Source of the DNA: Paludibacteraceae bacterium
GTDB taxonomy: Bacteria; Bacteroidota; Bacteroidia; Bacteroidales; Paludibacteraceae
Direction: 5' to 3'
Assembly (NCBI GenBank): GCA_024405875.1
Contig: JAKSOA010000012.1
Location: 1-59,464, forward strand
Length of the DNA: 59,464 bases
The notes beneath the pieces are model-generated. The model was not told the DNA's origin. It saw only the letters and a program-made list of their open reading frames with translations, and made no database searches. Of the stretch, positions 6,845 through 56,424 are shown piece after piece. Position numbers and translations under genes: made by a program. Numbering within the stretch: the stretch's first letter is position 1; each line of letters opens with the position of its first letter.

Positions 6845-6864
6845 GAAATTTTGGAGTAGCGAAG
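6845..6864 (+). repeat. Left arm of the GAGTAGCGAG intergenic element (copy A, partial)
   Basis: GAAATTTTGGAGTAGCGAAG matches the left arm seen in the complete copies at 8961, 21231 and 56350. The remainder is absent, and a TTAATTG tandem run follows up to the next start codon. Confidence 0.6.
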
Positions 6865-8945: not shown

Positions 8946-8960
8946 ATTAGTGAATAGTGA

Positions 8961-9037
8961 ATTTTTGGAGTAGCGAGAGGAGAACAAGTTTACTTGTTAT
9001 CCCGAGTCACGACAAAAATCATTAAACGAAGTTTAAT
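8961..9037 (+). repeat. GAGTAGCGAG intergenic element (copy B)
   Basis: Complete copy: left arm ATTTTTGGAGTAGCGAG, a first hairpin with 7-bp stem AACAAGT/ACTTGTT, right arm CGAGTCACGACAAAAA, then a second hairpin (9021-9037) with 7-bp stem ATTAAAC/GTTTAAT and loop GAA. It separates pnuT from the TonB receptor gene. GAATAGTGAATA tandem tracts lie on both sides. Confidence 0.75.
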
Positions 9038-9075
9038 AATAGTGAATAAAGAATAGTGAATAGTTTTAACAAATA

Positions 9076-21216: not shown

Positions 21217-21230
21217 CAATAAAAGGAGAA

Positions 21231-21302
21231 ATTTTGGAGTAGCGAGAGCAGAGTAAATGAATTTACTCTGCCGAGTCACGACAAAATTCAAGGCGAAACC
21301 TT
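21231..21302 (+). repeat. GAGTAGCGAG intergenic element (copy C)
   Basis: Complete copy: ATTTTGGAGTAGCGAG, hairpin 1 with perfect 11-bp stem GCAGAGTAAAT/ATTTACTCTGC and loop GA, CGAGTCACGACAAAAT, then a small AAGG/CCTT hairpin with loop CGAAA. It matches the inverted copy E at 56350-56424 very closely. Confidence 0.8.
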
Positions 21303-21342
21303 AAAGGAGAAAGTTTAAAGTAGCGAGAGCAGAGTAAATTTA
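21303..21342 (+). repeat. Second left arm of the GAGTAGCGAG element (copy C2, partial)
   Basis: Directly after copy C a diverged repeat of its left arm (AAAGTAGCGAGAGCAGAGTA core) reaches to 8 nt before the recJ start codon, so it probably forms the recJ 5' untranslated region. Confidence 0.65.
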
Positions 21343-21350
21343 TTTGAATT

Positions 21351-41119: not shown

Positions 41120-41419
41120 CTAATCTTCAAACTCAAAAAACTCATCAATTTTTGTAAGCGTAAGTATCTGTTTTATATCAGGTTTCATTCCCTTGATTAA
41201 AATTGTCCCGGATATTTGTTTCCTGATTTTAAGGAAAAGTCTCAAACCAGATGAACTGATATATTCCAAACCGTAGCAATCAATAGCAAGTTGTTTCCCC
41301 TGAGATTGTGCTATAAGTTCATCAACCTGAGCGCACAACTCTGTGGCAACCTCTGTGTTAAGTCTGCCACTCAGGGTACATACAACATTATCTTCGTTCT
41401 GTTCTATATTGAAGTTCAT
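41120..41419 (-). CDS. STAS-domain anti-anti-sigma-factor-like protein
   Basis: 99 residues, a single STAS domain: VVCTLSGRLNTEVATELCAQ, then LAIDCYGLEYISSSGLRLFLKIRKQ with the phosphorylatable serine region, as in SpoIIAA/RsbV. A partner kinase or phosphatase is not nearby. It probably acts in partner switching, but the target is unknown. Its start codon lies inside a 12-bp inverted repeat. Confidence 0.85.
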   Translation of the reverse strand: MNFNIEQNEDNVVCTLSGRLNTEVATELCAQVDELIAQSQGKQLAIDCYGLEYISSSGLRLFLKIRKQISGTILIKGMKPDIKQILTLTKIDEFFEFED

Positions 41420-41443
41420 AAAATTTTATTTTAAAATTTTATG
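41417..41443. repeat. 12-bp inverted repeat including the STAS start codon
   Basis: CATAAAATTTTA and TAAAATTTTATG separated by TTT. The start codon is at one end and its mirror at the other. Confidence 0.75.
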
Positions 41444-41448
41444 CATGT

Positions 41449-41582
41449 TTGTTCGTGACTCGGCATAATCAGGTAAACCTGCTTCCTAAGTTTTTCTCTG
41501 TGTGTTGATTAGAATAAATTCTATCAACACTCATCGTAAAACTTGAATCTGCTACGCAGATTCTGCCCTCGCTACTCCAAAC
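41449..41582 (-). repeat. GAGTAGCGAG intergenic element, long variant (copy D)
   Basis: Inverted copy with TTCGTGACTCG at the left end and CTCGCTACTCCAAA at the right. Between the arms are CAGGT/ACCTG, a bulged 13-bp stem around 41500-41530, and GAATCTGC/GCAGATTC. It is about twice the length of the other copies and fills the gap between the STAS and gpmI genes. Confidence 0.6.
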
Positions 41583-41631
41583 AGTCATAAATACTAGTTA
41601 ATACCTTGTCCCTTGACCTTTTAATTAAGGC

Positions 41632-46251: not shown

Positions 46252-46275
46252 AATAACCCAGGTAAACATAGTTTC

Positions 46276-46318
46276 CGCTCTCACTGCTCCAAAACTTCAC
46301 CGAGTACCCTCAGGGTAC
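46276..46318 (-). repeat. Diverged half of the GAGTAGCGAG element (copy F)
   Basis: CGCTCTCACTGCTCCAAAAC resembles the right end of the inverted copy E. A GTACCC/GGGTAC hairpin with loop TCA follows at 46304-46318. Confidence 0.4.
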
Positions 46319-55334: not shown

Positions 55335-56330
55335 TTATGCTTGATTTGAGGTTATTATTATCATTTTAATTATATCATCAACATTACAGCCACGTGAAAG
55401 GTCATTCACAGGGGCTGCCATACCTTGAAGTATAGGACCTACGGCAACTCCGCCACTCAGACGCTGTGCAAGTTTATAACCAATATTGCCTGCGTCAAGG
55501 TTAGGGAATACCAATACATTGGCGTCACCCTGAATATTACTGCCCGGAGCCTTACTCATACCCACTGATGGAACAATAGCGGCATCAGCCTGGAACTCAC
55601 CGTCAAGGCAGAGGTCAGGAGCCATCTCCTTGGCAAGACGTGTGGCGGTCTGAACCTTCTCCACACAATCGTGCTTGGCGCTACCCTTAGTTGAGAAACT
55701 GAGCATCGCAACCTTTGGCTCAAAGCCTCCAAGAACTCTTGCGGTAGAGGCGCTTACTACGGCAATCTCAGCAAGTTGCTCAGCCGTAGGGTCGGGAGTT
55801 ACAGCACAGTCAGCAAATATGAATGTGCCGTTATGTCCGTACTCCGCCTTTGGTATAATCATAAGGAAAGCACCAGAGACAACGCTTATGCCTTTCTTCA
55901 TCTTAATAATCTGAAGAGCCGGACGCAGCACATTGCTGGTGGCGTTCATAGCACCGGCAACCTCTCCGTCGGCATCGCCGTTCTTAACCATAAGAGAGGC
56001 AAGATATAAAGGACTGTCGTGGACAAGTTTGCGAGCCTCATCCTCTGTCATACCCTTGTTCTTACGCAATCCATAAAGAAGTTGTACATACTCCTCTGCC
56101 TTAGGGTCAGACTCCACATCAAAAATTGTAGCCTTATCAATGCACTTAAGACCCATTTCCGCAGCCTTTGCAAAGATTTCCTCTTTTTTACCCAGCAGAA
56201 TTACATCTGCCAAACCCATCTCCATTGCCTTGCAGGCAGCCTCTAATGTGCGTGCCTCAAGCGATTCAGGCAATACAATTCTCTTTTTGTTTGCCTTAGC
56301 CCGCTCCGCTAATTGTTCAAATATTTCCAT
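55335..56330 (-). CDS. pta: Phosphate acetyltransferase
   Basis: 331 residues from ATG at 56330, the short single-domain Pta. Converts acetyl-CoA and phosphate to acetyl phosphate. ERAKANKKRIVLPES near the start, GEVAGAMNATSNVLRPALQ, and MSKAPGSNIQGDANVLVFPNLDAGNI as the catalytic core. The frame stays open upstream for 32 codons through the intergenic repeat, which is not part of the protein. With ackA it forms the acetate branch. Confidence 0.96.
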   Translation of the reverse strand: MEIFEQLAERAKANKKRIVLPESLEARTLEAACKAMEMGLADVILLGKKEEIFAKAAEMGLKCIDKATIFDVESDPKAEEYVQLLYGLRKNKGMTEDEARKLVHDSPLYLASLMVKNGDADGEVAGAMNATSNVLRPALQIIKMKKGISVVSGAFLMIIPKAEYGHNGTFIFADCAVTPDPTAEQLAEIAVVSASTARVLGGFEPKVAMLSFSTKGSAKHDCVEKVQTATRLAKEMAPDLCLDGEFQADAAIVPSVGMSKAPGSNIQGDANVLVFPNLDAGNIGYKLAQRLSGGVAVGPILQGMAAPVNDLSRGCNVDDIIKMIIITSNQA

Positions 56331-56349: not shown

Positions 56350-56424
56350 ACAACTTCGTTGTGAATTTTGTCGTGACTCGGCAGAGTAAATAAATTTACT
56401 CTGCTCTCGCTACTCCAAAATTTC
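56350..56424 (-). repeat. GAGTAGCGAG intergenic element (copy E)
   Basis: Inverted complete copy: ACAAC/GTTGT hairpin (loop TTC, i.e. GAA on the element strand), TTTTGTCGTGACTCG, hairpin 1 with the 11-bp stem GCAGAGTAAAT/ATTTACTCTGC, then CTCGCTACTCCAAAAT. It lies between xerD and pta. Confidence 0.8.

Follow-up and report, generated by a model that had tools for sequence, protein, structure and literature searches.

The window, meaning the whole stretch of 59,464 nucleotides that was analysed, holds three complete copies of a short palindromic element, each followed by a second small hairpin, together with a long variant and three partial copies (Table 1). The left arm, TTTTGGAGTAGCGAG, occurs ten times in the window at up to three mismatches (1.44 expected) and the right arm, CGAGTCACGACAAAA, five times (1.08 expected), numbers reached in 0 of 100 shuffles for either arm. 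The complete copies and shared arms described in the initial annotation are thus well above chance. The left arm is the part that all three partial copies have kept. One of these, annotated at 46276-46318, does have its left arm there, but it lies on the minus strand and runs on to lower coordinates. Likewise the long variant, given as 41449-41582, is present, but it is itself a repeat extending over 41415-41607, with copies in genomes G002 and G003. In sequences of this variant (L109, L111, L115-L119) several extra hairpins can be made out by eye, with stems that change with compensation between copies.

Table 1. Copies of the palindromic element in the window, with adjoining features
Feature	Position	Strand	Evidence
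Complete core hairpin (arms and hairpin 1)	8963-9017	+	CM match E 3.3e-21; RNA fold
Hairpin 2, ATTAAAC-GAA-GTTTAAT	9021-9037	+	Read from letters; RNA fold
AATAGTGA on either side of the 8961 copy	8953-8960, 9038-9045		Read from letters
Complete core hairpin	21232-21286	+	CM match E 1.6e-21; RNA fold
Hairpin 2, AAGG-CGAAA-CCTT	21290-21302	+	By reading; folded stretch ended at 21299
AAAGGAGA on either side of the 21231 copy	21222-21229, 21303-21310		Read from letters
Left-half partial copy, adjoining 3' end of the complete 21231 copy	21313-21343	+	Left arm 21313-21327, 3 mismatches; remainder by reading
Complete core hairpin	56366-56420	-	CM match E 5.9e-22; RNA fold
Gene with the 56366-56420 copy on its leader side	55335-56330	-	Crude ORF call
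Hairpin 2, ACAAC-GAA-GTTGT	56350-56362	-	By reading; RNA fold
Long variant, extra hairpins between arms 41568-41582 and 41448-41462	41415-41607	-	Arm search; extent from G002/G003 matches
Palindrome after long variant, holding start codon 41417-41419	41417-41443	-	Read from letters
STAS-domain gene starting in that palindrome	41120-41419	-	Pfam STAS E 2.2e-14
Left arm alone	6849-6863	+	1 mismatch
Left arm (46280-46294) and part of hairpin 1, right arm not found	46253-46294	-	2 mismatches; remainder by reading

The arms had been described as flanking a separate hairpin. Arms, hairpin 1 and hairpin 2 all exist, but the two arms form a stem of 15 x 15 positions with each other, and the element is a single hairpin of 55-60 nt. 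Counted from the outside, the arm stem has five pairs and a tandem G.A, then two pairs up to an A.C, two more up to a second tandem G.A, and a single pair, above which come a bulged base and hairpin 1. When the three complete copies of the window were folded as RNA, this arm-arm structure was returned, with z scores of -3.8, -4.6 and -5.0. Among the 99 best-scoring copies, not all of which are independent, hairpin 1 has a two-base loop (T-TT-A, C-TT-G or T-TC-A) in 90, and a second small hairpin exceeds the threshold in 77 and falls short of it in 22, compared with 34 of 99 above it when the flanks were shuffled (one shuffle). A fold is conserved in which the outer stem varies and stays paired, tandem G.A motifs and a bulge are kept and the apical loop is small; a second hairpin usually accompanies it. 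Three-base loops were found in 30 of the 49 distinct second hairpins, 17 of these 30 being C-GNA-G. GNA loops are described in the available text of PMC4686876 as forming very stable DNA mini-hairpins, and their occurrence here may be taken as a hint, though no proof, of a fold in DNA. For two copies the opposite strands were folded as well, giving RNA energies of -19.7 and -24.3 kcal/mol against -19.5 and -23.8 and a different outer part. Since they fold equally well or better, strand specificity is carried only by the kept G.A letters and by the sense bias reported below.

Searches with covariance models yielded far more than the window copies. Of 1415 candidates in the own genome 150 were scored with the first model, and at least 28 of these were full-length copies at E below 0.01, some of them belonging to a second subfamily with TTACTAGG; at E 0.01 the same model had matches in 18 of 41 genomes. 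Fourteen of the 16 genomes of the genus carry 1 to 99 copies, among them 99 in G006, 89 in G008 and 69 in G009, and none were found in G007 and G014. With a broader model relatives were found in 52 of 247 sampled Bacteroidales genomes at E 0.001; copy counts at this level are lower bounds, at most 23 candidates having been scored per genome. Tandem arrays with a period near 75 bp are present in G229 and G052, and the core pattern was also matched in a contig of a Paludibacteraceae MAG from horse faeces.

Congeneric species also have their copies at different places. None of the three complete copies of the window is present at any of the 13 orthologous places aligned (the 56350 copy is missing from five relatives with the same neighbours, the 21231 copy from five and the 8961 copy from three), and these copies must therefore have been gained recently or lost repeatedly. 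Moreover, an alignment of the region before rpmH showed a long form in G002 and G003, a short form in G010 and neither in G001 and G012. The element is thus dispersed, and the proposal of selection on structure rather than recent copying is supported in its first half, the fold being constrained as described below, but not in its second. Both are true: the repeat disperses and its fold is constrained.

The closest likeness in kind is to the REP/RAYT systems, which according to the available text of PMC3733652 also consist of short palindromic repeats in many copies, mostly intergenic and with several subfamilies per genome. The present element is twice as long and keeps tandem G.A motifs, does not track with a Y1 transposase and is seldom placed between convergent genes (9 of 96 copies). 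Nor does the hairpin have a GTAG/GTGG tag at its foot; in one subfamily GTAG forms part of the paired arm, and the TTACTAGGAACGAG and TGCAAGCGAG types lack it. The copies could nevertheless be REPs that owe their movement to a Y1 HUH transposase (RAYT) working on single-stranded DNA hairpins, as is known from REP elements, with the transposase gene now lost or unassembled. Small palindromes forming stable hairpins, in high copy number and with no coding capacity, are what would be expected, and RAYT subclass 2.6 of the Bacteroidetes is flanked by atypical secondary structures, as far as the accessible part of PMC6006769 describes them. This explanation is unlikely, because GTAG is not constant between subfamilies and because the transposase and the element do not go together. 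Y1 (PF01797) was not detected at E 0.001 in the own genome, the assembly of which is 79% complete, and within the genus it exceeded the cut-off in 2 of 16 genomes, neither of them the copy-rich G006 or G008. Across the order it is present in 28 of 52 element carriers and in 120 of 195 other genomes (p 0.34), and in 3 of the 14 genomes with nine or more element copies. Among the 33 Y1 loci scanned, no Y1 gene flanked by the element was found; the element occurs at one locus, in G009, about 770 nt from the gene. A resident Y1/RAYT as the mobiliser was rejected, there being no association in the own genome, the genus or the 247 genomes of the order. A reverse transcriptase was also considered and set aside: RVT_1 is encoded in 5 of the 16 genus genomes (G000, G002, G006, G011, G012), and no relation to copy number was seen. 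The search for Y1 and for reverse transcriptase thus brought up no mobilising enzyme.

Palindromic repeats without a dedicated transposase have a parallel in the CGTC-tagged REPs, which the available text of PMC3733652 reports from Bacteroidetes too, with stems of 8-9 bp and loops of 4-5. Neither a CGTC tag nor an 8-9-bp stem was seen by eye in the 99 copies; many left flanks end in GAAA, GAAT or GACT(G). The palindromic elements of Rickettsia can sit in open reading frames, judging from the part of PMC10969869 available, and comparable to this is L187 (1468-1977; genome G237), where a relative of the element lies inside an open frame that continues into an hsdS-type gene (Pfam Methylase_S, E 1.6e-10). 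The Rickettsia elements differ in being about 150 bp long and often in frame with a conserved peptide, whereas nearly all copies here are non-coding. In L187, and in L172 of G159, CTTAA-like words stand on both sides of the relative. By eye, L172 shares the NVP start with L187, the true start codons being uncertain. At the gathering threshold Rfam returned tRNAs alone, and the long variant and the 21.2-kb copy gave no credible match at E 1. In the literature covered, which leaves out most subscription papers, we recognised no description of the present hairpin family. It is known in kind and, as far as these searches show, new in sequence, structure and distribution, and its fold with kept mismatches is an uncommon one.

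The initial annotation had placed the element only between genes. This is so within the window according to the crude ORF call, but 15 of the 99 copies overlap a crude ORF, and the relative in G237 lies in the hsdS-type frame; placement mostly before or between genes was borne out. Neighbours were usable for 96 of the 99 copies. In co-directional gaps 47 are in sense and 20 in antisense (p 0.0013), 20 lie between divergent and 9 between convergent genes, and the 27 copies of the own genome are divided into 19 sense, 4 antisense, 4 divergent and none convergent. In the genus of the window the element is biased to the sense direction. The replication strand does not explain this bias, since 14 of 26 own copies lie on the G-rich strand, or 12 of 19 where the skew is clear (p 0.36, low power; for ORFs, 181 to 86), and insertion according to replication strand was rejected on the same comparison. 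A start codon forms the end of the 3' arm of hairpin 2 in five copies of the own genome. Same-strand promoter motifs were found within 200 nt upstream in 2 of 95 copies, where shuffled sequence would give 0.2 of 99, and downstream in 5 of 95. With so few upstream motifs, transcription of the leader copies stays putative.

The sense bias, the leader position, the start codons inside some second hairpins, the kept G.A and the covarying stems could all belong to a cis-acting regulatory RNA that is retained for some shared signal and disperses only secondarily. The genes downstream have no theme in common. The five copies that end in a start codon precede genes of unrelated families (P-II, nucleotidyl transferase, queuosine synthesis, decarboxylase and STAS), to which L34 can be added. 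Moreover 20 of the 67 co-directional copies are antisense, 9 of 96 lie between convergent genes, and none of the three complete copies in the window is conserved from one species to another, all of which makes a shared regulatory function improbable.

The stems had been said to vary between copies and yet always to pair, and compensatory variation was found far above the shuffled and slid controls. In 11 chosen copies of the own genome both partners change in 8 of 21 pairs (covariation score 0.292 against 0.120 shuffled). An alignment of 91 matches from the own and other genomes (73 distinct rows) has compensatory changes in 21 of 21 pairs and 93.1% of cells paired, and scores 0.468 against 0.157 when shuffled and at most 0.080 when slid; its rows, which are related to one another, were fitted to the structure and include a few short or opposite-strand matches. 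In addition, when copies were placed without regard to the mismatch letters, GA still stood opposite GA at the inner mismatch in 93 of 109 distinct copies. The compensatory changes together with the opposed GA/GA show that the fold is constrained. The pairs covary as would be asked of a structured RNA, but a DNA fold would look identical. Quasi-palindrome correction is template switching at DNA palindromes, and it could make stems appear to covary in the absence of any selection on structure. Such a process would fit the AT-rich stems of the start-codon hairpin, in which A/T blocks shift between copies and stay palindromic. Correction would, however, erase mismatches, and here GA/GA stays opposed while the neighbouring pairs vary, and the outer stem varies while the adjoining mismatches are retained. 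We hold this explanation to be about as improbable as a common regulatory signal.

The longest word shared between the two flanks of a copy averages 5.83 against 5.19 in permutations within subfamilies, and words of seven or more are shared in 37 of 99 copies against a mean of 21.9 and a maximum of 29 (200 permutations within subfamilies), the direct repeats being specific to each copy. Arrays of 7-8-nt repeats fill the same gaps in relatives that lack the element, and so no target duplication is claimed. Arrays of the AAAGTTGA, AAAGGAGA and AATAGTGA type were noted in the 8.9, 21.2 and 56.3 kb gaps and their orthologs, and they differ between species. Read by eye, the ends showed no terminal inverted repeats of the kind that a MITE shares with an IS, and a target duplication is not separable from the local arrays. 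If the element were a MITE that a DDE transposase moves, duplicating 8 bp of target, the copy-specific flanking repeats would be accounted for, but this is the least likely of the explanations weighed, as the two ends are not mutual inverted repeats, the outer stem differs between subfamilies and the 7-8-nt arrays of element-free relatives can explain the same repeats. The BrickBuilt MITEs of Porphyromonas gingivalis are likewise small Bacteroidales repeats with tandem units, but they have another sequence, IS5-type inverted ends and 23-nt repeats, and CGAG does not occur in the portion of their description available (PMC4596501); identity with BrickBuilt was rejected as unrelated.

Taken together, it is rather probable that these are non-autonomous, REP-like palindromes of the Bacteroidales which spread as a folded single strand and which, in leaders, form an mRNA hairpin. 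Of this reading the dispersing palindrome is well supported. Spread would proceed via a folded single-stranded intermediate, either ssDNA or RNA, recognised by a putative enzyme other than a resident Y1/RAYT transposase. A sense copy in a leader would then become a putative 5'-untranslated hairpin of the mRNA, tolerated or kept perhaps because its junction leaves or supplies the ribosome-binding and start region, with mRNA stability or access to the start codon as its predicted effect. Palindromic repeats that lack a transposase are a standing problem, and the signature of variable stems around constant tandem G.A lets carriers be found and the mobilising enzyme be sought by co-occurrence. If leader copies do affect the mRNA, many genes of the genus would have an exchangeable 5' hairpin for which no Rfam model was found.

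A broader version of the non-autonomous palindrome reading is more doubtful. Mobile hairpins throughout the Bacteroidales might spread as a folded single strand with a non-Y1 enzyme, supply leaders with a hairpin bearing both ribosome-binding site and start codon, and in other families provide a Bacteroidetes-type promoter on the reverse strand. On the opposite strand, within 40 nt of the left arm, TANNTTTG was found in 7 of 26 placed order-level relatives (L073, L076, L169, L174, L176, L185, L186) against 1 of 26 in the control, six further relatives being unplaced. A TTKG box at promoter spacing also occurs in three of these seven, and in order-level relatives the reverse strand may serve as such a promoter.

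Among IMG/VR contigs 32 stretches (L227-L258) match the core pattern, two with 2 matches and one with 3, and carriage of these candidate copies by phages or prophages is possible. On reading, another palindromic repeat (GGTCMCTGAGCTTGTCGA...) appears to be nested with copies L093, L094, L097, L098 and L148-L150 or to interrupt them.
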